Source: Agromyces mangrovi (GTDB taxonomy: Bacteria > Actinomycetota > Actinomycetes > Actinomycetales > Microbacteriaceae). Taken from it: DNA of 64,000 nucleotides. The notes beneath the pieces are model-generated. The model saw nothing but the letters and a program-made list of their open reading frames with translations. It had not been told where the DNA came from and ran no database searches. The position numbers and the translations under genes are program-made. This document shows positions 46,283 to 63,364 of this stretch, piece by piece. The stretch lies in the NCBI RefSeq assembly GCF_030296695.1, contig NZ_AP027737.1, forward strand, positions 992,001 through 1,056,000, given 5' to 3'. Each line of letters starts with the position of its first letter. Position 1 is the first letter of the stretch.

Positions 46283-46309
46283 GGGGGTCCTTTCGAATAT
46301 TGCGATGGT

Positions 46310-48160: not shown

Positions 48161-49410
48161 TGCCCTGCGCCCGCCTCGGTCTGCGACTGCACCGTGCCGA
48201 GGAAGTCCTCGGCGGTCATGTCACCGTTCAGCGCGCTCACCGCGTACTGGTTGAAGAGGGTGTTGACCTGGGTGAAGTTCGCCGTCGAGCGCAACGCCTC
48301 GCCGGTGGCGCCGGCCGCCGAGAGGGTGTCCTCGGCGATCGCGAACGCGCCCTGGTAGTACGCGGGCTGCTCGGCGGTGCGCGACGGGAAGGCGCGACCC
48401 TGCTCGGCGAGCGCGGTCTGCGCCTCGGGGCCGGTGAGCACCGAGATCGCCTGCAGCGCCTCCTCGGGGTACTCGCACGATGCGCTCACGCCGTAGCCCG
48501 AGCCGGCGACGGGCGTCGCCGAGCCGTTCGGGCCCGCGGGGATGAGGGCGACGCCGTACTCGAACGCGACCTGCTCGGCGACGTAGGCGAGCTGCCACGG
48601 GCCGTCGATCGCCATCGCCGCGTCGCCCGCGACGAACGAGTTGAGCGCGTTGTAGGAGTCGCTCGTGGCGGGCAGCTGCGGCGCGCTGCCGTCGGCGACG
48701 AGGCCCTGCAGGTACGCGACCGCCTCGACCATGGCCGGGTCGGTCAGCTGCAGCGAGCCGTCGGCGGCCACGCCCTGCTCGCCGCCCAGCGTCAGCGACC
48801 ACGCGGTCGTGGTGTCGACGGTCGGGTTGATGGCGTAGCCGTATTTGCCGTCGCCCGAGAGCGCAGCGGCGGCCTCGGAGAAGTCGTCCACCGTCCAGTC
48901 CTCGGCGGGCGCGTCGAGGCCGGCCTCGGCGAACGCGTCGGCGTTGTAGAAGACGATGAGGGGCCCGAGGTCGTAGGGCACGGCGACCTGCTCGCCGTCG
49001 ACCTGGGTGCCCTCGACGATGGCGCTGTCGAACTCTGCCAGGTCGATGCCCGCGTCGGCGAGCATCCTGTCGTCGAGCGGCAGCAGCAGCTCGCGGATGC
49101 TCGTCGCACGCGGCGACTGCACGCCGAGGATGCACGCCTCGGTGCCGCCGCTGGCCTGTGCGGCCAGCCGAGTCCAGTAGTCGTTGAACGGTGCCGTCTC
49201 GAGCTCGAGCTGGATGTTCGGGTACTCCGCCTCGACCAGGCCGACGAGGGTCTCGAGGGCCTCGGTCTCGGGGGTGGAGCCGGCCCACATCGAGAAGGTG
49301 AGCGTCGTGACGCCGTCCTCCTGCGTGCTGCCTCCGCCGCCGCCCGAACAACCCGCGAGCAGGGCCAGGGCCCCGACCGCCGCCAATGGTGCTCCGACGA
49401 ATCGCTTCAT
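48157..49410 (-). CDS. Sugar ABC transporter substrate-binding lipoprotein
   Basis: A 417-residue extracellular solute-binding protein. It has a lipoprotein signal peptide with lipobox LLAGC (Cys21), followed by a glycine spacer. It shows TLTFSMWAGSTPETEALETL, VPYDLGPLIVFYNADAFAEA, FVAGDAAMAIDGPWQL and GSGYGVSASCEYPEEALQ, as in family 1 binding proteins of CUT1 transporters. GGAGAGGAAG precedes the ATG. It is first in the operon with two permeases and the GH29 fucosidase; fucosylated oligosaccharides are the inferred ligand. Confidence 0.93.
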   Translation of the reverse strand: MKRFVGAPLAAVGALALLAGCSGGGGGSTQEDGVTTLTFSMWAGSTPETEALETLVGLVEAEYPNIQLELETAPFNDYWTRLAAQASGGTEACILGVQSPRATSIRELLLPLDDRMLADAGIDLAEFDSAIVEGTQVDGEQVAVPYDLGPLIVFYNADAFAEAGLDAPAEDWTVDDFSEAAAALSGDGKYGYAINPTVDTTTAWSLTLGGEQGVAADGSLQLTDPAMVEAVAYLQGLVADGSAPQLPATSDSYNALNSFVAGDAAMAIDGPWQLAYVAEQVAFEYGVALIPAGPNGSATPVAGSGYGVSASCEYPEEALQAISVLTGPEAQTALAEQGRAFPSRTAEQPAYYQGAFAIAEDTLSAAGATGEALRSTANFTQVNTLFNQYAVSALNGDMTAEDFLGTVQSQTEAGAGQ

Positions 49411-49608
49411 GACTGTCTTCCTCTCCGTTGAAGAAATGGTGCTGTGCTCCGGCAGGACGTCCAGAGATCAGATCTATTCCGGTGATCAGTGTTGCTGCGC
49501 TAACCGTTTCAGTCAAGCGCGAAATCGTGATCTGGCCGCCATTGGCCTGTGATTACGCGAGTTCTGATGACAGTTTCGCGCTGATTCGTGATGAATCTCA
49601 CCGATATC

Positions 49609-49622
49609 GCGGAACGTTTCGC
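49609..49622. promoter_or_regulatory. LacI-type operator candidate at the fucoside locus
   Basis: GCGGAACGTTTCGC is a palindrome with one mismatched pair and a CG centre. It lies 48 bp upstream of the lacI-type gene in the divergent control region. A second sequence, TAACCGTTTCA (49501-49511), nearer the transporter operon, shares the GTTTC half and may be another site. Confidence 0.5.
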
Positions 49623-49669
49623 TCGTTTCGGCTACGCTACCACCACAGACTCATCCGACCAACAGGGGA

Positions 49670-50692
49670 ATGCGGGGCAGCGTGGCCACCTACCATGACC
49701 TCCGGCGCGAGACCGGGCTGTCGCTCGCGACGATCTCGAAGTACTTCAACGGCGGCAACGTGCTCGAGGAGAACGCGCGCAGCATCGAGGAGGCCGCGAA
49801 GCGGCTCGAGTTCCGGCCGAACACCTTCGCCCGCAACCTCCGCACACGGCGCACGCGCACGGTCGGCGTGCTGCTGCCCGACCTCACGAGCGACTTCTAC
49901 CTGTCGATCCTCTCGGGCATCGAGCGGCGGCTCCGCGACAACGGCGTGAGCATGCTCATCTGCGTCGACCACCACGAGGACGAGGGCGTCGACGACGCGG
50001 TCGAGTTCCTCGCCTCGCGCATGGTCGACGGCGTCATCACCGTGCCGAGCACGCGCGCGCTGCCCGGCCTGCGCACGCTCGCGGCACAGGGCACGCCCGT
50101 GGTCGCGATCGACTGGCCCGCAGACGGCGTCGAGGCCGACGCCGTCGTGATCGACAACGAGGAGGCGGCGGCGATGGCGATCCAGCGCCTCGCCGACCGC
50201 GGGCACCGTCGCATCGCGTTCATCGGCAACGACCGCGTGCCGACCATCCGCGCCCGCGAGCGCGGCGTGCGCAACCAGCTCGCCGCCCGCCGCATCCCGG
50301 TGCGGGAGGAGTACATCGCCCGCTCCCCCATGTCGGTCGAGGGCGGCCGGCTCGCCATGCAGCGGCTGCTGCTGCTCGAGGAGCGCCCCACCGCCGTGTT
50401 CTGCTCCATGAACCTGGTCGGCGTCGGCGCGCTCACCGCGCTCGCCGAGTCGGGGCTGCGCGTGCCCGACGACATGTCGTTCGTCGGGTTCGACATGCCC
50501 CTGCTCGCGCGCATGACCGATCCGCCGCTCGACATGGTCAATCAACGGGTGGGCGACCTGGCACGGGCATCCGCCGACCTCATGCTGCGCCGCCTCGACC
50601 CCGAGGCCCCGGCGGTGCCGCCGCAGACCGTCGTGCTGCACGCCGAGTTCCTGCACGGCGGGTCGGTGGCCGACATCCGCCGCCAGTCGTGA
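49670..50692 (+). CDS. LacI family transcriptional regulator
   Basis: A 340-residue LacI/GalR repressor. The N-terminal helix-turn-helix reads TYHDLRRETGLSLATISKYF with the hinge ARNLRTRRTRTVGVLLPDL. The periplasmic-binding-like effector domain has DGVITVPSTR, HRRIAFIGN and SFVGFDMP. It is divergent from the transporter/fucosidase operon and precedes the mutarotase and lactonase genes, so it probably controls the locus with fucose or a fucoside as inducer. An in-frame GTG at 49682 is an alternative start. Confidence 0.9.
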   Translation: MRGSVATYHDLRRETGLSLATISKYFNGGNVLEENARSIEEAAKRLEFRPNTFARNLRTRRTRTVGVLLPDLTSDFYLSILSGIERRLRDNGVSMLICVDHHEDEGVDDAVEFLASRMVDGVITVPSTRALPGLRTLAAQGTPVVAIDWPADGVEADAVVIDNEEAAAMAIQRLADRGHRRIAFIGNDRVPTIRARERGVRNQLAARRIPVREEYIARSPMSVEGGRLAMQRLLLLEERPTAVFCSMNLVGVGALTALAESGLRVPDDMSFVGFDMPLLARMTDPPLDMVNQRVGDLARASADLMLRRLDPEAPAVPPQTVVLHAEFLHGGSVADIRRQS

Positions 50693-50766
50693 TCATCGGC
50701 TGAATGCAGGGCGATCGGATGCCTCTGAGGCGAAACCGGCCTCCTGAACGTGAGAAGATCGGATCT

Positions 50767-51117
50767 ATGACGTCAACGACGATGCGAATCGCCCTCCACT
50801 CGACGGTGCGCGAGGGCTACATCGAGCAGCATGCCAGCATTCCCGAGGACCTCGTCGACACGTTCGCCCGCGTCGGCATCCACAACTGGACGATCTGGCG
50901 CTCGGGCGAGCACATGTTCCACCTCGTCGAGTGCGACGACTGGGACGCGGCGATGGCCGCGATCGAGGAGGACCCGGCCAACCTGCGCTGGCAGGCGACG
51001 ATCGGACCGTACGTCGAGCTGTACCGCGACTCCGACGGCGAGCCCGGATTCGTGCCGCTGGCCGAGGTCTACGACCTGCGCCGGCAGCGTGCCGCCCGAG
51101 CGGCGGATCCGGCATGA
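50767..51117 (+). CDS. L-rhamnose/L-fucose mutarotase family protein
   Basis: A 116-residue protein of the RhaM/FucU-like family (formerly DUF718), which interconverts the anomers of deoxysugars. It has EGYIEQHASIPEDLVDTFAR, GIHNWTIWRSGEHMFHLVEC and DPANLRWQATIGPYVEL. Its stop overlaps the lactonase start (ATGA). With a GH29 enzyme and a fuconolactonase-like gene next to it, L-fucose is the likely substrate. Confidence 0.85.
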   Translation: MTSTTMRIALHSTVREGYIEQHASIPEDLVDTFARVGIHNWTIWRSGEHMFHLVECDDWDAAMAAIEEDPANLRWQATIGPYVELYRDSDGEPGFVPLAEVYDLRRQRAARAADPA

Positions 51118-51962
51118 CCGCCCCGGGGCTGATCGACGCGCACGTGCACGTGTGGGACCCGTCGCTGCACCGGTACGACTGGCTCGACGGCCTCGCGATC
51201 CACCGGCCGATGCTGCCGGCCGACGTCGACCGCGCCGGCGGGGCGACGACCGGCATGGTGTTCGTGCAGGCGGGGGCCGCGCGCGAGGACGCGCTCGCCG
51301 AGGCGCGGTGGGTGGGCTCGGTCGACTGGCCCGAGCTCGTCGCGATCGTCGCCGATGCGGACCTGCTGTCGGATGCGGACGACCTGGCCGAGCACCTCGA
51401 CGCGCTCGCCGCGCTGCCGAAGGTGGTCGGCGTGCGCGACAACCTGCAGAACGAGCCGGTCGAGACGTTCACCGCCCGTGCCGATGGGCTGGCCGAGCTC
51501 GGGCGCCGCGGGCTCACGTTCGACGCCTGCATCCGCCACACCCAGCTGCCCGCGCTCATCGACCTGCTCGCCGCGGCGCCGGGCGTCGCGGTCGTGCTCG
51601 ACCACCTCGGCAAGCCGCCGATCGACGCAGGTGTCGACTCGCTCGAGGGACGCGCCTGGTCGGCCGGCATCGGCGAGCTCGCGTCTCGGCCCGGCACGTT
51701 CGCCAAGCTCTCCGGCCTCACCGCCGAGTCGGCCGATGCAGACGCGTTCGCCCGCAACGCCGGCGCGTTCATCGCCCGCGTGCTCGAGGCGTTCGGCCCC
51801 GAGCGCACCATGCTCGGCAGCGACTGGCCCGTGAGCGCCACCTTCGGCGTCGGCGGCTCGTTCGCCGACTGGGTCGCACGCGTGCGCGCCCTCGTCGGCG
51901 AGCCCGACTGGCCCGAGGTCGCCTCCGTCAGCGCGCGTCGCGCCTACCTCGGGACTCCGTAG
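51114..51962 (+). CDS. Amidohydrolase-superfamily sugar lactonase, probable L-fucono-1,5-lactonase
   Basis: A 282-residue TIM-barrel metal-dependent hydrolase. It starts LIDAHVHVWDPSLHRYDWLD, has FDACIRHTQLPALIDLL and VVLDHLGKPPI, and ends with ERTMLGSDWPVSATFG. These are the landmarks of the 2-pyrone-4,6-dicarboxylate lactonase/fuconolactonase group. It is coupled to the mutarotase gene. The expected reaction is opening of L-fuconolactone to L-fuconate. A fucose dehydrogenase is not visible beside it. Confidence 0.85.
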   Translation: MTAPGLIDAHVHVWDPSLHRYDWLDGLAIHRPMLPADVDRAGGATTGMVFVQAGAAREDALAEARWVGSVDWPELVAIVADADLLSDADDLAEHLDALAALPKVVGVRDNLQNEPVETFTARADGLAELGRRGLTFDACIRHTQLPALIDLLAAAPGVAVVLDHLGKPPIDAGVDSLEGRAWSAGIGELASRPGTFAKLSGLTAESADADAFARNAGAFIARVLEAFGPERTMLGSDWPVSATFGVGGSFADWVARVRALVGEPDWPEVASVSARRAYLGTP

Positions 51963-51970
51963 ATCGCAGC

Positions 51971-52507
51971 TCAGCCGGCGGTGAACGCGCCGGCCCGCTT
52001 CGCCGCGATCGCCCGGTGCGTCGTCGGCAGCATGGCGACCCGAGTCGCGAGGGCTATCGGATCGATCAGCGCCGCGTCGACGAGCGCCCCCACGAAGTCC
52101 ATGTCTTTCGGCTCGCCTCGGACGAGCTTCGCTGCACACAGGTCGATGGGATCCAGGCACAGCCCGGCGGCACCGCCTGGCCCGTCTGGTTCGACGCGCA
52201 CGATCCGCTCCTCCCACCCGGCAGGGAGCACCGCGGTCGCCAAGCTGACGCCCTGCCCATAGAACCCATGGGCGCGATCGAACTCGGACCACTCGCCGAT
52301 CGCCACGTCGATCATCTGCGCGACCAGTCCTCGCGCGTCGTCTCGCACGGGCACCACATCGGCCTCTCGCGACAGTGTTGCCCGCTCCGGCAGCTCATCC
52401 GCATCCCACGTACCCAGAATCGCCTGGCTGCCGATGATGATGACCTCTCCCTGACTGCTCACCTCGGTCGCTCGCCGGATGATCTCCTCCAGGTCTGCGC
52501 GCTTCAT
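51971..52507 (-). CDS. Nucleotidyltransferase-like protein (DUF6036 type), possible toxin
   Basis: A 178-residue protein with a nucleotidyltransferase-fold start: EVIIIGSQAILGTW (helix-turn glycine/serine motif) and the acidic strand SREADVVPV, then CLDPIDLCAAKLVRGEPKD with MDFVGALVDAALID. This resembles DUF6036/AbiEii-related proteins. It overlaps the preceding XRE gene by 4 bp. Similar two-gene modules behave as toxin-antitoxin systems, but activity here is unproven and the second catalytic acid is not obvious. Confidence 0.68.
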   Translation of the reverse strand: MKRADLEEIIRRATEVSSQGEVIIIGSQAILGTWDADELPERATLSREADVVPVRDDARGLVAQMIDVAIGEWSEFDRAHGFYGQGVSLATAVLPAGWEERIVRVEPDGPGGAAGLCLDPIDLCAAKLVRGEPKDMDFVGALVDAALIDPIALATRVAMLPTTHRAIAAKRAGAFTAG

Positions 52508-53004
52508 GCCGCGGTCGCCCGCTGAATCGCCGCCACTCGCGCGGCGTCGGTGAGCGCGCCTGCGAACGGAGAGTTCTGGCGCAGCTCTCGGCCCTCGGTC
52601 GTGTCGGCGAGCATCGCGTCGATCAGTTCATCGACCGGACCGGCCGCGAGCTCCTCCCAGCGGTCGAGCCAGTGAACCGCCTCGCCACGCGCGTGAGGGC
52701 GGATGCGGTCGAGGTTGCGTGGCACGACCGCGAGCGCCGCTTCCGGTCGCTGTAGCAGTTCCGCCGCGAGCGTGCGGTGCAACTCGATGAGCACACGCTC
52801 CTCTCGCCGCACCGGTACGACCTCCAGGCGAGGCTCCCGGTCCATCGCGGCGAGCGCTCGACGCAGCGTGTCGAGCCGGATCGTTCCCCGTCGCTCCGAC
52901 TCCTCCATGCGCGAGACGGTCGAGACATTGACGCCGAGTCGGCTCGCGAGCTCACGCTGCGACCACCCGACGGCATCCCGTGCTGCTTCGATCGTCGCCG
53001 ACAT
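52504..53004 (-). CDS. XRE family regulator, probable antitoxin partner
   Basis: A 166-residue protein. The N-terminal helix-turn-helix reads AVGWSQRELASRLGVNVSTV then SRMEESERRGTIRLDTLRRA. The C-terminal helical domain ends RELRQNSPFAGALTDAARVA, a recurrent motif in partners of nucleotidyltransferase-like proteins. GGAGGTG precedes the ATG at 53004. A near-ideal operator palindrome lies 16 bp upstream of the start, so autoregulation of the two-gene unit is likely. Confidence 0.78.
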   Translation of the reverse strand: MSATIEAARDAVGWSQRELASRLGVNVSTVSRMEESERRGTIRLDTLRRALAAMDREPRLEVVPVRREERVLIELHRTLAAELLQRPEAALAVVPRNLDRIRPHARGEAVHWLDRWEELAAGPVDELIDAMLADTTEGRELRQNSPFAGALTDAARVAAIQRATAA

Positions 53005-53019
53005 GCATCCACCTCCGTG

Positions 53020-53035
53020 TTGCATTCTAATGCAA
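53020..53035. promoter_or_regulatory. Operator palindrome of the XRE/nucleotidyltransferase unit
   Basis: TTGCATT-CT-AATGCAA is a palindrome with perfect 7-bp arms and a 2-bp centre, in an AT-rich island that should contain the promoter. Its geometry fits an XRE dimer. Confidence 0.65.
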
Positions 53036-53089
53036 CAAAGCGGCGCCCGCCCGGGAGTCGGGTCGACCGAACGGGCGCCTGCTCGGATG

Positions 53090-54607
53090 CTACGCCTCGG
53101 CGGGCAGCACCAGCACGCCGTCGATGCGCCGCGGGATGCCCGCGTAGTCCTCGCGGAGCTCCTCAGGCAGCGCCGACGCGGGCGCACCCTGGTAGGCGAT
53201 CGGCCGCAGGAAGCGCCGGATGGCGCTCACGCCCACCGAGGTGTGCTGCGAGTTGGTCGAGGGCCAGGTGCCGCCGTGGTGCTGGCCCCACGAGACGCGC
53301 ACGCCGGTCGGGTACCCGTTGAACACGATGCGGCCGGTGCGCGGGGCGAGGTCGGCGAGCAGCTCGTCGACCAGCGACGCGTCGGCGTCCTCGCTGTGGA
53401 TGGTCGCGGTGAGCGAGTCGGGCACGGCGTCGAGCGCGGCGCCGATCTCGGCCGCGTCGTCGTAGCGGGCGACCACGATGAGGGGGCCGAAGGCCTCCTC
53501 GGCGTGCTCGGGCGAGAGGTCGGAAGCGTCGACCTGGAGCACGACCGGAGTTGCGGCGAACCCGTCGCCCGAGGCATCCGCCCCCTCGGCCACCGTGGAC
53601 GCGCCAGCGGCCAGGATGCGGTCGCGGATCTCGCCGAACGACCCCGAGATGCGGCCGTTGAGCAGGGTCTGGGCGGATGCCTCGCCGGCACGCTCCGCGA
53701 GCCCTGCGACGAGTGCGTCACCGGCGTCGCCGCGCGGCACGAAGGCGATGCCGGGCTTGGTGCAGAACTGTCCGGCGCCAAGCGTGAACGAGCCGAACAG
53801 GCCCTCGGCGATGGCGCCCGCGCGCGCTGCAGCGGCGGCGGGGGTGATGACGAGCGGGTTGAGGCTCGACAGCTCGCCGTAGAACGGGATCGGCTCGGGG
53901 CGCGCGTTGATGATGTCGAGCAGGGCCTTGCCGCCGGAGAGCGACCCGGTGAAGCCGACGGCGCGGATGCGCGGGTCGGCGACGAGCGTGCGGCCCGCCT
54001 CGGTGCCGTAGACGATGCCGACCGTGCCCTCGGGGGCGCCGTACGCGGCGACGGCGCGAGCGATCGCGGCGTGCGAGCGCTTCGCGGTCTCGAGGTGCGA
54101 CGAGTGCGCCTTCACGACGACCGGGTTGCCGCCGGCGAGCGCCGAGGCGGTGTCGCCGCCCGCGACCGAGAACGCGAACGGGAAGTTGCTCGAGCCGAAC
54201 ACGCCGACCGGGCCGATCGGCACGAGCATGCGGCGGATCTCGGGCTGCGGCCCGAGCGGGGTGTCGCCCGCGTGGTCGATCGTCGCCTCGAGGTAGGAGC
54301 CCTCGCGGAGCGCCTCGGCGAAGAGGCGGAACTGGAAGGCGGCGCGGCCGACCTCGCCGGGCAGGCGCGGGCTGCCGAGGCCGGTCTCGCGGTCGGCGGC
54401 CTCGACGAGCGCGTCGCGGTCGGCCTCGAGGGCGTCGGCGATGGCGTCGAGGAGGCCGGCGCGCCAGGCGCGGCTCGAACGGCCGAGCACCGCGAAGGCG
54501 TCGGCGGCGCGGCCGATGACGGCGGCGGTCTCGTCGGCGGTGCAGGGGGCGATGCCGGTGTCGGTCGTCTCGCCGGTGCGCGGGTTGGTCGACTGCAGGG
54601 TGGTCAT
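53090..54607 (-). CDS. Aldehyde dehydrogenase, alpha-ketoglutarate semialdehyde (2,5-dioxovalerate) type
   Basis: A 505-residue NAD(P)-dependent aldehyde dehydrogenase. The catalytic cysteine is in AGQFCTKPG and the general base in FYGELSS; VGVFGSSNFPFAFSVAGGD and GFTGSLSGGKALLD form the cofactor site. These segments match the 2,5-dioxovalerate dehydrogenase clade that makes 2-oxoglutarate in oxidative pentose and hexarate routes. It lies 17 bp after the FAH gene, matching the XylX-XylA order of the Weimberg pathway. GGAG precedes the ATG at 54607. Confidence 0.85.
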   Translation of the reverse strand: MTTLQSTNPRTGETTDTGIAPCTADETAAVIGRAADAFAVLGRSSRAWRAGLLDAIADALEADRDALVEAADRETGLGSPRLPGEVGRAAFQFRLFAEALREGSYLEATIDHAGDTPLGPQPEIRRMLVPIGPVGVFGSSNFPFAFSVAGGDTASALAGGNPVVVKAHSSHLETAKRSHAAIARAVAAYGAPEGTVGIVYGTEAGRTLVADPRIRAVGFTGSLSGGKALLDIINARPEPIPFYGELSSLNPLVITPAAAAARAGAIAEGLFGSFTLGAGQFCTKPGIAFVPRGDAGDALVAGLAERAGEASAQTLLNGRISGSFGEIRDRILAAGASTVAEGADASGDGFAATPVVLQVDASDLSPEHAEEAFGPLIVVARYDDAAEIGAALDAVPDSLTATIHSEDADASLVDELLADLAPRTGRIVFNGYPTGVRVSWGQHHGGTWPSTNSQHTSVGVSAIRRFLRPIAYQGAPASALPEELREDYAGIPRRIDGVLVLPAEA

Positions 54608-54624
54608 GCGTTGCTCCTCGGAGT

Positions 54625-55845
54625 TCAGGTCAGCAGGCCGCGGCGGGCGAGGCCGCGGTAGAGGTCGTCGATGCCGAAAGTCCACGGCTCTGCCGCATCC
54701 GTCGGGCGCACCCGGTTCACGAGCCCGCCGAGGCGCGGCTCGGCGATGCGCACGATGTCGCCGTCGCGGTGGGTGAACCCGCGGCCGGGCTCGTCGCGGT
54801 CGTCGACCGGCGCGAACATGGTGCCGAGGAACAGCACGAAGCCGTCGGGGTAGCGGTGGTGCGCGCCGATGGTCTGCGCGACCAGGTCGGCCGGGTCGCG
54901 GCTGATCTGCGCGAGCGGGCTCGTGCCGTCGAGGCGGTACCCCTCCTCGCCGTCGATGCCGAGCGACACCACGCTCGCGCGCAGGTCGTCGAGCCCGTAG
55001 CCGGCGTCGAAGAAGCGGATGAACGGGCCGACCGACGCCGACGCGTTGTTGTCCTTCGCCTTGCCGAGCAGCAGCGCGCTGCGGCCCTCGATGTCACGCA
55101 GGTTCACGTCGTTGCCGAGGCTGGCGCCCACGATGCGGCCGTCGGATGCCACGACGAGCACGACCTCCGGCTCCGGGTTGTTCCACTGCGAGGCCGGGTG
55201 CACGCCGACGTCCACCGCGGGGCCGACCGTCGCGAGCACGGGCGCCTTGGTGAACACCTCGGCGTCGGGGCCGATGCCGACCTCGAGGTACTGGCTCCAC
55301 CAGCCGCGCTCGAGCAGCAGGGCCTTGAGCGCCGCCGCCTCGTCGGAGCCGGGCTTCAGCTCGTCGAGCGAGCCGCCGATCGTGCCGAGGATCTCGGCGC
55401 GGATCGTCGCGGCCGCGTCCTGGTCGCCGCGCGCCCGCTCCTCGATCACGCGCTCGAGCATCGAGACCGGGAAGGTCACGCCCGCGGCCTTCACGACCTG
55501 GAGGTCGATCGGCGAGAGCAGCCACGGCCGCTCGTCGTCGCGCGTCTCGGGCGGGGTGTTCGCGACGAGCTCGTCGAGCGTGCCGAGCACGGGGCCGGAT
55601 GCCGCGGCCAGCGCAGCGGCCGGGTCGGGCGTCTCGCACAGCGCGCGCATGGTCGGGAACGCGGCGCTCACGTCGACGACGCCCTCGGCGCGGATCGCGA
55701 CGACGCTCGGGCCGCCCGCGGCCGGGTCCCAGACGCGTGCGGCGAGCGTGCCGGCGGTGCCGTCGTCGGGCAGCAGGTCGGCCGCGGCGGGCGGCCAGGC
55801 GGCGGTGGACGCTGCGGGTGCCGGATCGGTGGTCGTGGTGCTCAT
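54625..55845 (-). CDS. Fumarylacetoacetate hydrolase family protein, XylX/KdaD-like
   Basis: A 406-residue FAH-fold protein. The N-terminus has LLPDDGTAGTLAARVWDP, GPSVVAIRAEGVVDVSAAFP and MRALCE. The core has NNPEPEVVLVVASDGRIVGA, SLGNDVNLRDIEGRSALL, LGKAKDNNASASVGPFIR and GFVLFLGTMFAPVDDRD. Length and motifs fit the 2-keto-3-deoxy-pentonate dehydratase group (XylX, KdaD) rather than the shorter diketo-fuconate hydrolases. The expected product, 2-oxoglutarate semialdehyde, would feed the adjacent dehydrogenase. Confidence 0.82.
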   Translation of the reverse strand: MSTTTTDPAPAASTAAWPPAAADLLPDDGTAGTLAARVWDPAAGGPSVVAIRAEGVVDVSAAFPTMRALCETPDPAAALAAASGPVLGTLDELVANTPPETRDDERPWLLSPIDLQVVKAAGVTFPVSMLERVIEERARGDQDAAATIRAEILGTIGGSLDELKPGSDEAAALKALLLERGWWSQYLEVGIGPDAEVFTKAPVLATVGPAVDVGVHPASQWNNPEPEVVLVVASDGRIVGASLGNDVNLRDIEGRSALLLGKAKDNNASASVGPFIRFFDAGYGLDDLRASVVSLGIDGEEGYRLDGTSPLAQISRDPADLVAQTIGAHHRYPDGFVLFLGTMFAPVDDRDEPGRGFTHRDGDIVRIAEPRLGGLVNRVRPTDAAEPWTFGIDDLYRGLARRGLLT

Positions 55846-55872
55846 GGTGCTCCTGGGGTCGTCGGGTCGAAC

Positions 55873-56655
55873 CTAGCGGCGGTGGAAGACGCCCGCGCGC
55901 TTCTCCGCGAACGCGGCACGCCCCTCGTCGGCGTCGGCCGTGGCGAACGTGATGGTCTGGAGGTCGCGCTCGTACCGCAGCGCCTCCTCCTGCGTCATGT
56001 TGACCGCGGCGCGCAGGTTCGCCTTGGCGGTCTCCGCGGCGATCGGCGGGCGACTCGAGATGGTCGCGGCGAGCTCCTGCGCGCGGGCGACGAGGCCTGC
56101 GGGCTCGACGAGCTCGGTCACGAGCCCCCAGCGCTGGGCGGTCTCGGCATCGATCGGGTCGCCGGTCATGAGCATGACCGCGGCGTTCGACGGGCCGATC
56201 GAGGTGGTGAGGAACGTCGCCATGCCCCCGCCGCCGATCCAGCCGAGCTTGATCTCGGGCGCCGCGAAGCTCGCGGTGGTCGAGGCCAGGCGGATGTCGC
56301 AGGACAGCGCCGTCTCGAGCCCGCCGCCGAACGCGTAGCCGTTGACCGCGGCGATCACGGGCTTCCGCGCCGCGCGGATCGCGTCGCAGTAGTCGGTGCG
56401 GTTGCGGAACTCCCATGGGGTGGCGTACTTGTCCAAGGAACGGATGTCGCTGCCCGCGCAGAACGCGCGCTCCCCCGCCCCGGTCAGCACGATGGCGCGG
56501 ATCTCGTCGGCGGCATCCGCCCACTCGACGACCTCGACGAGCGCGTCCGACATCTCCTGCGTGACCGAGTTGAGCTTCTCGGGTCGCGCGAGCGTGATGG
56601 TGGCGACGTGGCCGTCGACCTCGAGCAGCACGTGCTCGCTCGTGACCTCGATCAT
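55873..56655 (-). CDS. Enoyl-CoA hydratase/isomerase family protein
   Basis: A 260-residue crotonase-fold protein. It has ITLARPEKLNSVTQEMSDAL, LTGAGERAFCAGSDIRSLD (oxyanion hole), NGYAFGGGLETALSCDIRLA and the second active-site region FAAPEIKLGWIGGGGMATFL. It acts on an acyl-CoA, but the exact reaction is not evident. Its ATG overlaps the stop of the solute-binding-like gene by 4 bp, in a tightly coupled run with a CoA transferase. Confidence 0.88.
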   Translation of the reverse strand: MIEVTSEHVLLEVDGHVATITLARPEKLNSVTQEMSDALVEVVEWADAADEIRAIVLTGAGERAFCAGSDIRSLDKYATPWEFRNRTDYCDAIRAARKPVIAAVNGYAFGGGLETALSCDIRLASTTASFAAPEIKLGWIGGGGMATFLTTSIGPSNAAVMLMTGDPIDAETAQRWGLVTELVEPAGLVARAQELAATISSRPPIAAETAKANLRAAVNMTQEEALRYERDLQTITFATADADEGRAAFAEKRAGVFHRR

Positions 56656-57791
56656 CGGTGGGTTCCTCCTGAAAGCGCGGGCGCGGCGGCCAGCGCGTCG
56701 TACATGGTGTTGATGCGGGCGACGGATGCCACGGGGTCGGCCCCGCCCGTGAGTGCCTCGCGGAGCACGGCCGACGCCGCCGACTGGAACGGGATGTACC
56801 CCGGCACGCGCGGGCGCACCCACGAGTCGTCGATCGTGGCCAGCGTGTTGCGGTAGAAGTCGCCGGATGCCGCGTTGACGGCGTCGTCGGTCCACGCCGA
56901 GCGCAGGCTCGGCTGGCCGTCGTTGGCGGGGATGAACCCGGCCTGCAGGTCGGGGTCGAGGAGCCCGGCGAGGTGGTCGACGAGCGCCTCGTCGGGGTGG
57001 CAGCGGGCGGAGAGCGCGATGCCCGTGCCGCCGATGGTCGAGCCGCGGCGGCCGCCCGGGGTCGCCGCCGGCGCGTCCTCGAACGCGAGTGCGCCGGGGC
57101 CGGTCGCGTTGGTCACGTAGCCGTAGACGAGCGGGATGTAGGCGATGTCGCGCGCCTGCTGCATGCGGTCGAGCAGGCCGATCGGGTTCTGCGCATCTGC
57201 GCCCGCGGGCTGGTGCGCGGCGAGCCGGGCGAGGATGCCGAACGCCTCGGCGCCTACGGACTCGGAGACGAGGCCCTCGCCCGGCACGACCCGCGGCTCC
57301 TCGCCGAGGGCGACGCAGAGCGACGCGAAGCTGAGGAACGCGTGCGGGCCGGCGAGGCTCAGCGCCACGGGCACGTCGAGCGCCTCGACCTCGACCCAGG
57401 TCTCGGGCGCGGTCTCGAGCAGCTCGGGCACGCGCACCGCGACCTGGGTCGCGGCGTCGAGCGGCAGCGCCCAGAGGTGACCGTCGAGCCGGTACGAGGT
57501 GAAGCTCGGGCCGACGCAGCCGGCCGCGAGGCGGTCGACCAGTGCTCGACCGAACAGGTCGTCGAGCGGCTGGAGGGACCCGTGCGCGAGCGCGTCGCCG
57601 AGGTGCGGGTGGTCGAGCACGATCACGTCGTAGCGCTCGGCGAGCTCCTCGATCGGCGTCGACTCGAAGCCCTCGAGCGGGTGCACGTCCCACGAGATGA
57701 GCGGGCGGTCGTCGCCGCCGAAGGCGTCCTCCGCGGCACGCTCGAGCGCGTGCCGGCCGCGCGGGTGGTCCCAGGTGAGTCCGCGGTACAT
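56652..57791 (-). CDS. Solute-binding-protein-like protein without signal peptide
   Basis: A 379-residue protein with the fold pattern of family 1 ABC sugar-binding proteins: VIVLDHPHLGDALAHGSLQP, SYRLDGHLWALPLDAATQVA, VPELLETAPETWVEVEAL and GFIPANDGQPSLRSAW. It begins directly MYRGLTWDHPRGRHALERAA with no signal peptide or lipobox. It shares TGATG with the CoA transferase stop and ATGA with the enoyl-CoA hydratase start, so it is made with these cytosolic enzymes. A cytosolic ligand sensor or a binding fold turned enzyme are the two main possibilities; function is unknown. Confidence 0.8.
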   Translation of the reverse strand: MYRGLTWDHPRGRHALERAAEDAFGGDDRPLISWDVHPLEGFESTPIEELAERYDVIVLDHPHLGDALAHGSLQPLDDLFGRALVDRLAAGCVGPSFTSYRLDGHLWALPLDAATQVAVRVPELLETAPETWVEVEALDVPVALSLAGPHAFLSFASLCVALGEEPRVVPGEGLVSESVGAEAFGILARLAAHQPAGADAQNPIGLLDRMQQARDIAYIPLVYGYVTNATGPGALAFEDAPAATPGGRRGSTIGGTGIALSARCHPDEALVDHLAGLLDPDLQAGFIPANDGQPSLRSAWTDDAVNAASGDFYRNTLATIDDSWVRPRVPGYIPFQSAASAVLREALTGGADPVASVARINTMYDALAAAPALSGGTHR

Positions 57792-59077
57792 CACGCCTCG
57801 ACGGGCTCGGGCTCGGCGCGGGGCACGGCGTGCGCGGGCGCGGCCGGGTCGGGGGCGGAGGCCGAGGCGGGGGCATCCGTCGTCTCCTTCGCGGCGCCCG
57901 ACGCGAGCAGCGCGTCGATCGCGGCGTCGTCGAACCCGGCCTGCGCGAGGATCTCGCGCGTGTGCTCGCCGACGCGCGGGGCGCCGCGGACGAGCTTGGG
58001 CGGGGTCTTGGAGAACCGGTACGGGAACCCGGGGGTCTTCACGTGCCCCTCGGTCGGGTGGTCGTACTCGATGAAGGTGCCGTTGTGCACGACCTGCGGG
58101 TCGTCGACGAGCTCCTGGTAGCCGTGCACGGGTCCGATCCACATGCCGGCCGCGCCGAGCGTCTCGATCCAGTAGCCCGACGGCTTCTCGGCGAGCTTCG
58201 CGGCGGTCTTGGCGTGGATCTCGTCGCGACGCGTCCAGCCCTCCACCTCGGAGTTCCAGCCCTCGAACGCGGGCTCGCCGATGAGGCGGCCGAGCTCGTG
58301 CAGGTCGGCGAACGCGAGCGCGACGAAGCCGTCGCTGGTCGCGAACACGCCGTAGGGGGCGCGGATGTAGACGTGCGCGTGCGGCTCGGCCGACCGCTCC
58401 TGGGTCTTCTTGCCGACGGTGAACACCGACAGCTCCTGCATCTGCAGGGTCGTCAGCGCGTCGAGCATGTTCACCGTGACGAGCTGGCCCTCGCCCGTGC
58501 GCTCGCGGTGCAGCAGCGCGGCGAGCACGCCCTCGAACGCGGTCGACGCGGTCACGGCGTCGGCGAGGTACTGGCCCGCGGGCGTCGGCTCGTCGCCGTG
58601 GCGGCCGGCCGAGAGCATCGCGCCCGACATGGCCTGCAGCAGCAGGTCCTGCCCGGGGCGGTCGCGGTACGGGCCGTCCTCGCCGTAGCCCGAGATCGAC
58701 ACGTAGACGATCGACGGGTTGATCGCGCGCAGCGACTCGTAGTCGACGCCGAGGCGCGCGGCGACGCCGGGGCGGTAGTTCTGCAGGAACACGTCGGCGT
58801 CGGCGACGAGGGCGCGCAGCGCCTCCTTGCCGGCATCCGACTTCAGGTCGAGGGCGACCGAGCGCTTGTTGCGGTTGAGCGACAGGAACGAGACGTTGAT
58901 CTCGTTGCCCTGCGCGCCGCCCGCGGCGGCGTGACGCTGCCACTCGCCCGTGGTCGGCTCGACCTTGACGACGTCGGCGCCGAGGTCGCCCAGGCGCTGG
59001 GCGGCGAACGGCCCGGCCATGGCGATGGAGCAGTCGAGCACGCGGTAGCCCGCGAGCACTCCGGTGGACTCGGTCAT
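57791..59077 (-). CDS. CaiB/BaiF CoA transferase family protein
   Basis: A 428-residue class III CoA transferase. It has LAGYRVLDCSIAMAGPFAAQ, RLGDLGADVVKVEPTTG, FLSLNRNKRSVALDLKSDAG, FLQNYRPGVAARLGVDYESL and SISGYGEDGPYRDRPGQDLL (containing the catalytic aspartate region). The C-terminal 35 residues are a low-complexity A/P/E tail. It moves CoA between organic acids; the acid is unknown. The start overlaps the Gfo/Idh stop (ATGA). Confidence 0.9.
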   Translation of the reverse strand: MTESTGVLAGYRVLDCSIAMAGPFAAQRLGDLGADVVKVEPTTGEWQRHAAAGGAQGNEINVSFLSLNRNKRSVALDLKSDAGKEALRALVADADVFLQNYRPGVAARLGVDYESLRAINPSIVYVSISGYGEDGPYRDRPGQDLLLQAMSGAMLSAGRHGDEPTPAGQYLADAVTASTAFEGVLAALLHRERTGEGQLVTVNMLDALTTLQMQELSVFTVGKKTQERSAEPHAHVYIRAPYGVFATSDGFVALAFADLHELGRLIGEPAFEGWNSEVEGWTRRDEIHAKTAAKLAEKPSGYWIETLGAAGMWIGPVHGYQELVDDPQVVHNGTFIEYDHPTEGHVKTPGFPYRFSKTPPKLVRGAPRVGEHTREILAQAGFDDAAIDALLASGAAKETTDAPASASAPDPAAPAHAVPRAEPEPVEA

Positions 59078-60165
59078 CGTGTTCCCTTCGCGGCATCCGC
59101 CGTCTCGTGCTCGTGGACGCGCACCTCGGCGCCGCCCGCAGCGGACGACCGCAGCATGGCGTCGATCAGCTCGATCGAGCGCGCCGCCACCGTGGCATCC
59201 GAGTTGTTCTCCGTGCTCGCCCCCGTGATGAGGTCGATGAACCGGTTCGGCGGCACGATGCATTCGTACGCACCGGCGCCCGGCTCGATGTCGAGGTCCC
59301 ACTTCTGACCGTCGTGGCGGTGCAGGCTGACCCGCTCGCGCTCGGTGTCGACGAGCAGTATGCCCTCGGTGCCGAAGATGCGGAGGTCCACCTGGTACGG
59401 GTCGCCGTCGGGCACGGTCGCGGCGCCCGAGAGCGAGCCGAGCGCGTGGTTGTCGAACGTGATCACGGCGGCGTCGTAGAGGTCGACGGCAGCGCCGGCA
59501 GTCGACACCTTGGACATGACGGATGCCGCCCGCAGCTCGGTCAGCCAGAACAGCAGCGCGCTCGAGTGGGTGACCTGGCCGTGCGCGTACCCGCCGCCGC
59601 GCGACGGCGACTGCCAGGTCGACGGGTCGGGCCCGCTGGTCTGCGAGTCCCAGAGCGCGCGGATGTGGTTCGTGTCGCCGGCGAACAGTCCGGTGGTGGG
59701 CGATGCCATGTTGCAGACGACGTGCTGGATCTCGCCCAGGTGGCCCGCCTCGACGAGCTTCCGCGCCTCGACCGTGAACGGCTTGTAGTTCCAGCCGTAC
59801 GGGGCGAGGAAGTGCACGCCGGCCTCCTCGACGCGGCGCGCGAGCTCCCAGCCCTCGTCGGCGTGCAGGGTGACGGGCTTCTCGACGAGCACGTGCAGGC
59901 CGCGGTCGACCGCCTGCACCGCCTGCGCGAAGTGCAGGTCGTGCGGGGTCGTGACGACGACCGCGTCGAGCCCCTGGTCGAGCAGCTCGTCGTAGTCGCG
60001 CGTGGCCATGCCGAAGCCGAACTGGTCGCGCACGGCCGCGAGTTCAGGGCCGATGCCGCAGACGCCGACGAGCTCGACGTCGTCGCGCCCGGCGAAGATC
60101 GGGAAGTGGTTGCTGGTCGCCCACCAGCCGGCGCCGACCGCGCCGAGGCGCACCTTCCGGCTCAT
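59074..60165 (-). CDS. Gfo/Idh/MocA family oxidoreductase
   Basis: A 363-residue NAD(P)-dependent sugar or polyol dehydrogenase-type protein. The N-terminal Rossmann motif is VRLGAVGAGWWATSNHFPIF; the catalytic-site region is HVLVEKPVTLHADEG with the conserved EKP; APYGWNYKPFT and RGGGYAHGQVTHSSALLFWL form the C-terminal sheet domain. It is coupled by ATGA overlaps to the metallo-hydrolase before it and the CoA transferase after it. Oxidation of a sugar or sugar acid is expected. Confidence 0.87.
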   Translation of the reverse strand: MSRKVRLGAVGAGWWATSNHFPIFAGRDDVELVGVCGIGPELAAVRDQFGFGMATRDYDELLDQGLDAVVVTTPHDLHFAQAVQAVDRGLHVLVEKPVTLHADEGWELARRVEEAGVHFLAPYGWNYKPFTVEARKLVEAGHLGEIQHVVCNMASPTTGLFAGDTNHIRALWDSQTSGPDPSTWQSPSRGGGYAHGQVTHSSALLFWLTELRAASVMSKVSTAGAAVDLYDAAVITFDNHALGSLSGAATVPDGDPYQVDLRIFGTEGILLVDTERERVSLHRHDGQKWDLDIEPGAGAYECIVPPNRFIDLITGASTENNSDATVAARSIELIDAMLRSSAAGGAEVRVHEHETADAAKGTR

Positions 60166-61133
60166 GCCGCGTCCCCCGTCCAGGTCCAGCGTCGTCGTCC
60201 GTCTTCAGCGGTGGCGGATGCCGCGAGCCCGCGCGCCTCCATGCGCTCGAGGTTCCCGGTGACCGGGAAGATCGAGTAGTCGAGGGCTTCCGGGGGCCAC
60301 GGGCCGAGTGCCGGGCCGGCCGCGCGGATCAGTTCGAGCGCCGTGCTCGGGGCATCCTGACCCTTGAGCAGCCCGGCGAGGATCTCGTCGACCTGCTCGG
60401 TGTACGCCTCGCTCTCGTCGAGGAAGGCGGCGACGCCCTCGCCCTCGTAGACCGGGTAGTGCGCGGTGAGCAGCAGGTCGGCGTCGAGCGCTCGGAACGC
60501 GTGGATCGAGTCGACGTAGTCGGCGGTGTCGCGGTAGGTCGGCGGGAAGGCAGGACGGCCGTCGGCGAACGGCACGGTCGCGCCGAGGGTCGCGTCGCCG
60601 ATCATGAGCGCGCGGTTCTCGGGGTCGTACACGGCGACGTGGCCCGGGCTGTGGCCGGGCACGTGCAGCACGGTGACGCTGCGGCCGCCGAGGTCGAAGG
60701 TCTCGCCGCCCTCGAGCGCGCGGTCGACGGGCACGAGCTGCGCCCACTCGCGGATCGACGCCGTCAGCTCGGGCGGGTCGACGAAGCCGTCGGTGTCGAT
60801 GAACTCGCCGTAACGGGAGTCGATGAGCGCCTCGACGTCTTCGACCAGCGGCACGTCGGCGGCGCCCGCCATGACCTGCACGTGCGGCAGCGCCTCCGTC
60901 AGGGCGCGGTTGCCGCCCGTGTGGTCCCAGTCGCAGTGCGTGTTGACGGCCCACTTCACCTTCGCGCGCGGAATGCCCACCTCGTCGAGGTACGGCAGCA
61001 GCGTCTCGGTGATCGACGCCGGCACGCCCGTGTCGACGAGCAGCGCGGCATCCGTGCCGACCAGCAGGTAGAGGGCGACGAAGCGCTCTTCGAGGGGTGC
61101 CTGCACGCGGTGCAGGCCGGGGCGGATCTCCAT
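60162..61133 (-). CDS. MBL-fold metallo-hydrolase with altered metal motif
   Basis: A 323-residue metallo-beta-lactamase-fold protein. The metal motif reads NTHCDWDHTGGN, so the usual HxHxDH appears as H-C-D-W-D-H and lacks the second histidine. HVPGHSPGHVAVYD, IGDATLG and LTAHYPVYEG supply the later ligands. A C-terminal helical extension (about 235-323) may form an interaction domain. In this sugar-acid operon it could act as a lactonase or acyl-CoA thioesterase; neither is proven. Its stop overlaps the Gfo/Idh start. Confidence 0.85.
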   Translation of the reverse strand: MEIRPGLHRVQAPLEERFVALYLLVGTDAALLVDTGVPASITETLLPYLDEVGIPRAKVKWAVNTHCDWDHTGGNRALTEALPHVQVMAGAADVPLVEDVEALIDSRYGEFIDTDGFVDPPELTASIREWAQLVPVDRALEGGETFDLGGRSVTVLHVPGHSPGHVAVYDPENRALMIGDATLGATVPFADGRPAFPPTYRDTADYVDSIHAFRALDADLLLTAHYPVYEGEGVAAFLDESEAYTEQVDEILAGLLKGQDAPSTALELIRAAGPALGPWPPEALDYSIFPVTGNLERMEARGLAASATAEDGRRRWTWTGDAA

Positions 61134-61181
61134 CGGTCCTGGTCTCTCTCGTGTCGGTGTGTCAGCTCGCGTCGGGGAGGC

Positions 61182-62332
61182 TCAGCGCTCGACGCCGTCG
61201 AGCAGCATGCGGAGGCCGGCGCGGGTCGGACGCATGTGCGGCCCCGCGGGGTTGGCCCAGCCGGCGCCCTCGCGGGCGGCGGCGATCGCGGCCTCGTCGA
61301 TGCGGATGCCCGCACCGGGCTCGTCGCCCAGCACGATGCCGCCGTCGACGACCTCCTGGTCGACGTGCACGCCGGGCGCGTAGTCGAGCGCCTGCACCTC
61401 GGTGGTGAGGTGGTTCGGCACGGCGGTCGCCACGTGCACGACCGCGGGGTTCGCGTTGTGGCCGACGATGCTCACCGGCAGGTCGCGCACGGCCGCCGCG
61501 AACGACAGGCGCTGGAAGTGGGTGACGCCCCAGATCGAGCCCGCCTGCACGATGTCGGGCGCGCCCGCCTCGAACAGCGGACGGAACTGCTCGACGCCGG
61601 TGAGGTTCTCGCCGGTCGCGACCGCGGCACGGATCGCGTCGCTCAGGCGCGCGTGGCCCACCGCGTCCCACCGGCGCAGCGGCTCCTCGACCCACACCAG
61701 GTCGAAGTGCTGCTCGATCGCCGAGACGTAGCGCACGGCCTGCTTCACCTGCCACGACTCGTTCGAGTCGATCATCAGCCCGGGGGCATCCGTGTGTGCC
61801 GACAGCGCGTCGCGCATGATGCCGAGTCGCCGCAGGTCGGTGTCGAGGTCGAGCCCGCCCTTGAGCTTGCCGGCGACGTAGCCGCGCTCGGCGTACTGGC
61901 CGTAGAAGGCGTGCAGGTCGTCGTCGGGCAGGGCGATGTCGAGGCCCGACGCGTAGCCGGGCACGAACCGGTCGCGGCCGCCGAGCATGCGCCAGAGCGG
62001 TTCGCCGGCGGCCTTGGCCTTGAGGTCCCAGATGGCGGAGTCGAGGGTGGCGATGCCCCCGTAGGTCGCACCGGCGTGGCTCGACTTGAAGACCTGGGCG
62101 AGCATGCGGTCGAACAGCGCCGAGACGCTGCGCGGGTCCTCCCCTCGATCGCCGGGAAGAGGCGGGCGAGGTCGGCGTGCGAGCCGATGCCGGCGCCCTC
62201 GAGGCCGGTGTCGGTCTCGAGGATGACGATGGGGACGTCGGTGACGGCATCGGGGATGTGGCCGTTGGCGTCGCCGATGGCTCGCCGCCATTCGTGCTGC
62301 GCGGTGAGGGTGCGATACCCGGTGATCTTCAT
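61182..62332 (-). pseudogene. Enolase-superfamily sugar-acid dehydratase, frameshifted (probable assembly error)
   Basis: A mandelate-racemase-group enzyme: MKITGYRTLTAQHEWRRAIG, VPIVILETDTGLEGAGIG, then after the frame change IWDLKAKAAGEPLWRMLGG, GKLKGGLD (KxK), MIDSNESW, VWVEEPL, GENLTG and a basic histidine in IVGHNANPAVV. The frame changes at the C-run 62141-62144. The span of 1151 nt plus one base gives 383 residues. It is the first gene of the leftward operon, facing the FadR regulator. Dehydration of an aldonate to a 2-keto-3-deoxy acid is expected; the substrate is not fixed. Confidence 0.85.
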
Positions 62333-62379: not shown

Positions 62380-62459
62380 ACTTTACGGAGCGGATGTCAC
62401 GGGGCAGCGTCGCCCGGCCCGGTCGCCACCGGGCGGGGCGCCGATGCCTCGCGACCGCC

Positions 62460-62535
62460 GGGGGCGACCTCCCGCCGCAGGGAGCGTCCTCCCCGACCGC
62501 GGGAGTGTCCTCCCCCGCAGCGGGAGCGTCCTCCC
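62460..62535 (+). repeat. Four-copy repeat array upstream of the FadR-type gene
   Basis: GGGAGCGTCCTCCC-type units start at 62480, 62501 and 62522 (exact 21-nt period), with a diverged copy, GGGGGCGACCTCCC, at 62460. Each unit is an imperfect palindrome with GGGAG/CTCCC arms. The array ends 35 bp before the regulator start. A 21-nt period places all sites on one face of the helix, as in cooperative operators. Confidence 0.7.
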
Positions 62536-62569
62536 GACCGCGCCGGACCCGACCGTTAGGATGCAAGCC

Positions 62570-63364
62570 ATGTCCAACCCCGCCGGCCTTCCGAGCACGG
62601 GTGTGCCGAGCACCGGTTCCGGCGCCTCCGGCTCGCCCGCCATCCTCGGCGCGGGCAGCCGCCGCACGCCGAATGCCCGACTCGGTGTCGTCGTCGTGCA
62701 CGACCTGGTCAGCGCGATCGTGACCGGCGAGGTGCAGCCCGGCGACCTCCTCCCGACCGAGTCGGTGCTCACCGAGCACTTCGGCGTGAGCCGCACCGTG
62801 ATCCGCGAGTCGGTGAAGCGGCTCGAGGAGAAGGGGCTCGTGCGCGTCACCCAGGGGCGCGGTACCGAGATCACCGACCCGTCCGAGTGGAACATCCTCG
62901 ACCGGGTCGTGCTGGGCGCATTCGTCGAGCACGACGCGACGCTCGGCATCCTCGACGAGATCGCGGTGATCCGCGCGCAGCTCGAGTCGGTCATGGCGGC
63001 CGGCTGCGCCTCGCGGCGGAGCGATGCCGACCTCGACGCCCTGCGCGCCGCCATGGAGGAGATGCACCGCACGGTCGACGACACCGAGGGCTTCGCGCAG
63101 TCCGACATCGACTTCCACGTGCTCGTGATGGACATCTCGGGCAACCGGCTGGCCGAGGGCATCGCGCGCACGCTCGTCGCGCGCGCACGCGACAACTCGC
63201 GCTTCTACGGCGCGCCCGGCCCCGAGGCGCCGACCGAGACGCTGGCCGAGCACGAGGCGATCCTCGACGCGATCGCCGCGGGCGATGCGGAGGCGGCCGC
63301 GCGCCTCATGTCCGACCACATCACCACCGCCTGGGAGCGTCGCCGCATCCCCCGCGAGGCCTGA
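62570..63364 (+). CDS. FadR-subfamily GntR transcriptional regulator
   Basis: A 264-residue regulator. An N-terminal extension of about 35 residues precedes the winged helix (VVVVHDLVSAIVTGEVQPGD, LLPTESVLTEHFGVSRTVIR, ESVKRLEEKGLVRVTQGRGT). The FCD ligand domain follows with IAVIRAQLESVMA, DIDFHVLVMDISGN, EHEAILDAIAAGD and MSDHI, which include the metal-binding D and H positions. It is divergent from the enolase operon and is its likely repressor, with a sugar acid as ligand. ATGs at 62561 and 62570 are both possible; AGGA fits the latter. Confidence 0.9.
   Translation: MSNPAGLPSTGVPSTGSGASGSPAILGAGSRRTPNARLGVVVVHDLVSAIVTGEVQPGDLLPTESVLTEHFGVSRTVIRESVKRLEEKGLVRVTQGRGTEITDPSEWNILDRVVLGAFVEHDATLGILDEIAVIRAQLESVMAAGCASRRSDADLDALRAAMEEMHRTVDDTEGFAQSDIDFHVLVMDISGNRLAEGIARTLVARARDNSRFYGAPGPEAPTETLAEHEAILDAIAAGDAEAAARLMSDHITTAWERRRIPREA

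Follow-up and report, generated by a model that had tools for sequence, protein, structure and literature searches.

Conserved association of a class III CoA transferase, a binding-protein fold and an enoyl-CoA hydratase with Weimberg-type genes in Agromyces mangrovi: a possible CoA-dependent route for sugar acids

In carnitine metabolism the class III coenzyme A (CoA) transferase CaiB and the crotonase CaiD jointly dehydrate a hydroxy acid by way of crotonobetainyl-CoA, and the CoA is recycled. The aldopentonate dehydratases treated in the accessible part of one account are IlvD/EDD or enolase proteins, none of which works with CoA (PMC9795676), and the accessible part of another adds UxaA/GarD proteins, also without CoA (PMC6336799). 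A precedent for a sugar acid carried on CoA is the deoxyribonyl-CoA route proposed for the oxidative deoxyribonate pathway of Klebsiella michiganensis, whose gene cluster holds a CoA transferase (PMC6365646). Here we analyse 64,000 nucleotides of Agromyces mangrovi (contig NZ_AP027737.1, positions 992,001 to 1,056,000; hereafter the window, whose own coordinates are used), in which relatives of Weimberg-type sugar oxidation genes share a block with a class III CoA transferase, a crotonase-fold enoyl-CoA hydratase and a protein with the fold of a periplasmic binding protein. No description of this block was found in the literature searched, which omits most subscription journals.

The block resembles the Weimberg pathway (Route II) in containing a homolog of the FAH-superfamily 2-keto-3-deoxypentonate dehydratase, an aldehyde dehydrogenase and candidates for the sugar dehydrogenase and the lactonase, with a sugar ABC transporter nearby, and it differs from that pathway by placing CoA transferase, hydratase and binding-protein fold ahead of the FAH gene. 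With CaiB/CaiD it shares the pairing of class III CoA transferase and crotonase, and the catalytic-residue set of both enzymes (an Asp and two Glu) is present, but its context is one of sugar metabolism, it has the additional binding-like protein, and its CoA transferase scores 146.6 bits with the NCBIfam CaiB equivalog model, far under the cut-off of 413. The likeness to the Klebsiella cluster lies in the CoA transferase and, on the reading proposed below, in a sugar acid carried as a CoA thioester, whereas that cluster also has a CoA synthetase, a hydroxyacyl-CoA dehydrogenase and a thiolase, and the accessible part of its description names neither a hydratase nor a binding-like protein (PMC6365646).

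The block and its conserved core

A sequence-only reading of this DNA, made before the present analysis, had described a sugar-acid operon whose middle genes overlap by 1-4 bp from 61133 to 55873. The observation is borne out: eight genes occupy the minus strand from 62332 to 53090, and the overlaps from the MBL gene to the hydratase gene are 4, 4, 1 and 4 bp, followed by spacings of 27 bp to the FAH gene and 17 bp from there to the aldehyde dehydrogenase gene. Given in their order along the minus strand, below a divergent regulator, the features are:

62444-63364, plus strand: GntR/FCD (FadR-type) regulator, start codon uncertain (PF00392, 65 bits; PF07729, 96.5 bits)
61182-62332, minus strand: enolase-superfamily sugar-acid dehydratase, ENO1 (PF13378, 130 bits), with a frameshift near 62140
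60162-61133, minus strand: MBL-fold hydrolase with an HCDxDH motif (PF00753, 100 bits)
59074-60165, minus strand: Gfo/Idh/MocA oxidoreductase (PF01408, 73.5 bits)
57791-59077, minus strand: class III CoA transferase, core (PF02515, 359 bits)
56652-57791, minus strand: MalE-type binding-protein fold, signal-less, core (predicted structure)
55873-56655, minus strand: crotonase-fold enoyl-CoA hydratase, core (PF00378, 206 bits)
54625-55845, minus strand: XylX/KdaD-type FAH-superfamily protein (PDB 9kkt, 399 bits)
53090-54607, minus strand: NADP-type aldehyde dehydrogenase (PF00171, 157 bits; PDB 3v4c, 347 bits)

The gene overlaps argue against separate transcripts for the CoA half and the Weimberg half. 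Conservation of the arrangement was followed in a neighbourhood survey, the check that the sequence-only reading had proposed, which drew on 340 relatives in a scan of species genomes and kept 80 loci, with related strains and the duplicate-looking L010 and L011 left in and some stretches ending at contig ends. The core, defined as a CoA transferase at 55% or above, a binding-like protein and a hydratase at 55% or above, is present in 77 of the 80 kept loci (L065, L069 and L079 fail), and in 76 of these 77 the three genes adjoin one another in an unchanged order. These loci come from Actinomycetota and Alphaproteobacteria, to which annotated plasmids add one Betaproteobacterium. An FAH gene lies inside the fetched stretch in 61 of the 77 core loci and follows the hydratase gene directly in 48 of those 61, an adjacency seen in two phyla; the regulator protein is matched in 42 core loci, a relative of the aldehyde dehydrogenase occurs in 39, and IlvD in one (L018).

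At the front of the block stand two alternative gene pairs, either of which could in principle make an aldonate from a sugar. MBL and Gfo/Idh genes accompany 29 core loci and SDR and DUF4432 genes accompany 47, while no locus has both and a single truncated locus has neither; because the two pairs never co-occur, this suggests that they do equal work in oxidising a sugar to its aldonate. Loci of the MBL and Gfo/Idh kind mostly carry an enolase at 45% or above (27 of 29), FAH (28) and aldehyde dehydrogenase (24). Among the 47 of the SDR and DUF4432 kind, an enolase at that level is found in 12 and FAH in 32, and 22 combine the core and FAH with no nearby enolase or IlvD match. Pairwise distances covary from family to family (r 0.76-0.91), which was not used as evidence, as shared ancestry alone would yield it. 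Five loci of Asticcacaulis, Brevundimonas and Sphingopyxis have glyoxylate-reductase-like and kinase-like proteins close by, four of them together with an LldD-type 2-hydroxyacid dehydrogenase, and in the alphaproteobacterial L070, L075, L078 and L081 genes of these three types lie past the hydratase or FAH gene, which suggests a different lower pathway there.

More distant relatives retain parts of the association. Plasmid-borne binding-like relatives of 34-41% identity adjoin a CoA transferase (34-40% identity). Most of the plasmid loci opened, Bacteroidota included, have a MaoC-family hydratase and Gfo/Idh with, variously, an enolase, L-rhamnose mutarotase or RhaT. Since these distant loci hold a MaoC hydratase, the hydratase fold could be exchanged while a role at the CoA level stays, and the presence of two unrelated hydratase folds in the same context would fit dehydration or hydration of a CoA thioester. 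In Shinella sp. HZN7 a 47% binding-like protein is joined by an SMP-30 lactonase and by an enoyl-CoA hydratase relative at 35%. In Streptomyces sp. ITFR-6 one stretch holds binding-like protein, FAH, CoA transferase (63%), MaoC and aldehyde dehydrogenase, with no crotonase; the locus may be rearranged, because transposase genes surround it. Two Bacteroidota plasmids (L213, 8989-13665; L214, 8986-13782) have two CoA transferase genes apiece, with a binding-protein-like gene next to either one, and the second of these binding-like families gave no BLAST match to the binding-like protein of the window.

The proteins of the block

Both core enzymes keep the residues that we take to be catalytic by comparison with formyl-CoA transferase and rat enoyl-CoA hydratase. 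Among alignments at 50% identity or above, the window's own counted, Asp144 of the CoA transferase is invariant (84 of 84) and Glu114 and Glu134 of the hydratase are both retained (83 of 83). The nearest solved relative of the CoA transferase is the succinate-hydroxymethylglutarate CoA-transferase 9br6 (218 bits), with alpha-methylacyl-CoA racemases also among its PDB matches, and the hydratase has solved enoyl-CoA hydratases among its matches, the highest at 168 bits.

The protein encoded between them gave no match in Pfam and NCBIfam searches, and has at least 2234 homologs among 7996 candidates scored. Its predicted structure (pLDDT, the predicted local distance difference test, 93.6) has a MalE-type fold (type 2 periplasmic binding) over its entire length; the Foldseek and VIA matches listed are binding proteins, except for two fusion-construct chains, and many Asp, His, Glu, Trp and Arg residues are invariant among 26 aligned sequences. 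It had been called signal-less from the letters alone, and by inspection most of the 26 aligned relatives do have the conserved domain starting with, or close to, residue 1; no signal peptide or lipoprotein anchor was seen in this inspection of the alignment, for which no signal-peptide program was used. We judge the protein to be probably cytosolic. It shares its fold with the substrate-binding proteins of MalE-type ABC transporters and differs from them by its place between two CoA enzymes, the lack of a visible signal peptide and its many invariant residues. The view of this gene as an obligatory neighbour is weakened by CoA transferase-hydratase pairs that lack it between them in Croceibacterium and Martelella; a more distant binding-like copy is present elsewhere on the Croceibacterium plasmid, and in Martelella another lies about 7 kb further along the stretch.

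The remaining genes could supply the oxidative steps. The motif of the MBL protein reads HCDxDH, with the unusual Asp kept in 29 of 30 alignments, and we propose that the protein is an aldonolactonase; the Gfo/Idh/MocA protein, whose solved relatives are weak (best 65 bits), is proposed to be a sugar 1-dehydrogenase. For the FAH protein, the PDB match 9kkt is named just 'FAH family protein', with no stated function, and the archaeal dehydratase 2q18 aligns at 49 bits with its EPE and Asp positions matched. A role as 2-keto-3-deoxypentonate dehydratase is proposed, and the accessible part of a study of Herbaspirillum describes two characterised FAH-superfamily enzymes acting on D-/L-2-keto-3-deoxypentonate, one of which strongly prefers the D form (PMC6336799). 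With the NCBIfam 2,5-dioxovalerate dehydrogenase model, which is not its best model, the aldehyde dehydrogenase reaches 89 bits where the cut-off is 750; it is proposed to be a 2,5-dioxopentanoate dehydrogenase.

Proposed CoA-dependent dehydration and its alternatives

From the gene content, order, conservation, fold and retained catalytic-type residues described above we infer a set of reactions, a substrate and roles for the MBL and binding-like proteins. It is possible, and we hold it with slightly less than even confidence, that the block encodes an oxidative sugar pathway in which an aldonate is dehydrated as its CoA thioester and then feeds a Weimberg-type route. The Gfo/Idh protein would oxidise C1 of an aldose, the lactone would be opened by the MBL protein, and the class III CoA transferase would load CoA onto the aldonate. 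The crotonase would eliminate the C3 hydroxyl together with the C2 proton, acidified by the thioester, and the product would tautomerise to 2-keto-3-deoxy-aldonyl-CoA, whose CoA the transferase would pass to the next aldonate, releasing 2-keto-3-deoxy-aldonate. Succinyl-CoA might start this cycle. The FAH protein would then dehydrate the latter to 2-oxoglutarate semialdehyde, which the aldehyde dehydrogenase would oxidise to 2-oxoglutarate. For the cytosolic binding-protein fold the probable role is to capture the sugar acid and hand it to the CoA transferase, or else to sense it; the substrate is probably, as a guess, an aldopentonate of the D series. Breakdown of a sugar acid through a CoA thioester had been suggested from the letters alone, and it draws support from context, namely the company that the CoA genes keep with sugar oxidation genes, sugar ABC transporters and FAH.

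Several findings weigh against this proposal. The block contains no CoA ligase that could prime the cycle, and many loci already own a conventional dehydratase, since an enolase relative at 40% or above is present in 39 of the 77 core loci. Enolase-superfamily proteins also occur somewhere in all 17 genomes searched among the 22 SDR and DUF4432 loci that have FAH and no enolase or IlvD match. FAH is missing from the fetched stretch in 16 of the 77 core loci, some of them cut by contig ends, and at the level of genomes it accompanies the binding-like family in just 4 of 9 actinomycetes (the window's own counted) and in 3 of 6 Alphaproteobacteria. A genome of the window's own genus (G094) has FAH with no core. 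In Sinorhizobium meliloti a distant locus pairs CoA transferase and binding-like gene in a stretch with no hydratase, and the Croceibacterium and Martelella pairs have no binding-like gene between them. The absence of other dehydratases was dropped as proof of a CoA route on account of the enolase-superfamily proteins in the 17 genomes just mentioned. In favour of that route, only one IlvD-family protein is encoded in six of the 17, and UxaA/GarD proteins are absent from 14. The genome of the window itself gave one match to the IlvD family, none to UxaA/GarD and seven to PF13378, including ENO1 and a second enolase past the window. Taken together, the genome searches lean towards dehydration on CoA, without settling the matter.

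The reverse survey, which took FAH at E values up to 1e-40 and about 9 kb on each side where the contig allowed, found FAH in 19 of 246 genomes of the window's class and in 57 of 289 Alphaproteobacteria, and the binding-like family in 9 and 6 of these genomes, respectively. Among 75 FAH loci besides the window (18 actinomycete, 57 alphaproteobacterial), two have the core and 73 do not; because of these 73, the Weimberg half exists independently of the CoA genes, and an obligate coupling of both halves is rejected. The sequence-only reading had named homologous clusters lacking the CoA genes as evidence against its combined pathway; such clusters are the rule for the Weimberg half, and the reverse does not hold, since most core loci have FAH. 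An enolase or IlvD match lies in 14 of 16 other actinomycete FAH loci, and in 17 of the 57 alphaproteobacterial ones (none in 40), where many enolase matches are only 26-33% identical. The 73 FAH loci without the core, together with the core loci that lack FAH in the fetched stretch, speak for two independent functions under a common regulator, with the Weimberg genes serving one sugar and the CoA genes an unrelated hydroxy acid. We nevertheless think this unlikely, as the CoA genes are joined to the Gfo/Idh and MBL genes by overlaps in the window, core and FAH are adjacent across two phyla, and of 14 genomes searched, 9 have no FAH near the binding-like gene (L065 and L079, which lack the full core, among them) and 8 of these 9 carry FAH elsewhere, to be compared with 57 of the 289 alphaproteobacterial genomes.

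Other chemistries on CoA could be envisaged. The CoA transferase and hydratase might epimerise the aldonate thioester at C2 or C3, by proton exchange or by dehydration and rehydration, with the enolase dehydrating the right epimer; this would account for the enolase in the same block in 27 of the 29 MBL and Gfo/Idh loci, and the racemases among the matches of the CoA transferase speak for it, but it sits poorly with the 22 SDR and DUF4432 loci that have FAH and no nearby enolase or IlvD match, even with enolase-superfamily proteins elsewhere in the 17 genomes searched, and we regard it as about as improbable as two independent functions. A retro-aldol reaction, in the manner of feruloyl-CoA hydratase-lyase, would have the hydratase split the aldonyl-CoA between C2 and C3 into glycolyl-CoA and an aldehyde. 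The glyoxylate-reductase-like, kinase-like and LldD-type genes of the five alphaproteobacterial loci would suit such a cleavage, which seems quite unlikely given that it leaves FAH, so often directly after the hydratase, with no role, and that the canonical Glu pair of the hydratase is retained. Least probable, and in our view very unlikely, is that the CoA genes handle an acyl substituent freed from the sugar, such as the lactyl ester considered in the sequence-only reading. A hydroxy acid could indeed be processed by the CoA transferase and hydratase, glycan-degrading genes surround the locus, and among the distant relatives there are two acetylesterase-type genes near the Rufibacter locus and a thiolase near that of Roseibium; on plasmids, however, the core is accompanied by monosaccharide-type ABC transporters and sugar dehydrogenases. 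Esterase, thiolase and acyl-CoA dehydrogenase were found neither in the block nor among 27 of 45 shared neighbour families (those present in at least four loci) that were scanned with Pfam, and this idea has little support.

Genomic setting and significance

The host genome is 3.61 Mb in a single contig, and at the protein level the named organisms nearest to it are Agromyces. By its gene content, the surroundings of the block form what is recognisable as a fucosyl-glycan island, with the following features on the side of the aldehyde dehydrogenase gene:

44972-46282: alpha-L-fucosidase (PF01120, 282 bits)
46310-49410: sugar ABC transporter
50728-51117: L-rhamnose-mutarotase-family protein
50931-51962: L-fuconolactonase-like amidohydrolase (108.7 bits against a cut-off of 400)

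This fucoside-use cluster (44972-51962), which adjoins the block, also holds a LacI-type regulator. Just downstream of the block, at 51971-53187, a DUF6036 nucleotidyltransferase-like gene overlaps a helix-turn-helix gene and resembles a toxin-antitoxin-type pair. Across and past the other end of the window lie a GH141-like beta-helix protein, a label based on weak insertion-domain matches in related loci and on a 27% similarity of these to the window's family, and a sugar ABC transporter, together with an SDR, a relative of 2,4-didehydro-3-deoxy-L-rhamnonate hydrolase (a 2,4-diketo-acid hydrolase), the second enolase and an aldo-keto reductase (L218, 6134-10968), a set that looks like L-fucose Route III. 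Relatives of the dehydrogenase, lactonase, dehydratase, keto-acid dehydrogenase and 2,4-diketo hydrolase of that route stand beside the block, the hydrolase and lactonase models scoring below their cut-offs. A glycan that yields L-fucose and a second sugar would be a natural source of the substrate of the block.

The enolase-type dehydratase called from the letters alone is present, but its split by a frameshift had been missed: ENO1 is spread over two frames in this assembly, with the break near 62140. The beta-helix gene that crosses the window end (from 63670) is likewise split, at about contig position 1056720, which is about 2.6 kb from the ENO1 break; an almost identical genome of an uncultured Agromyces (L002) has each of the two genes in a single frame. 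That the two breaks sit so near each other suggests that they are probably uncorrected assembly errors.

Extended beyond this locus, the dehydration proposed here would point to a further class of CoA-dependent sugar-acid dehydratases in Actinomycetota, Proteobacteria and Bacteroidota, consisting of a class III CoA transferase, usually with a cytosolic binding-protein fold, and a crotonase or MaoC hydratase, a generalisation that we consider a doubtful possibility. Such a class may serve acids that are poor substrates of iron-sulfur or enolase enzymes, such as those from fucosylated plant glycans that have a 2-O-substituent or an unusual configuration. If the class exists, many bacteria would dehydrate sugar acids on CoA by means of enzymes that are today annotated as fatty-acid or carnitine proteins, and the annotation of several hundred genomes would be corrected, as the 340 relatives in one scan indicate. 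It would also offer an iron-sulfur-free dehydratase for pentose conversion, and a binding protein of ABC transporters would have been recruited into the cytosol as the partner of a CoA transferase.

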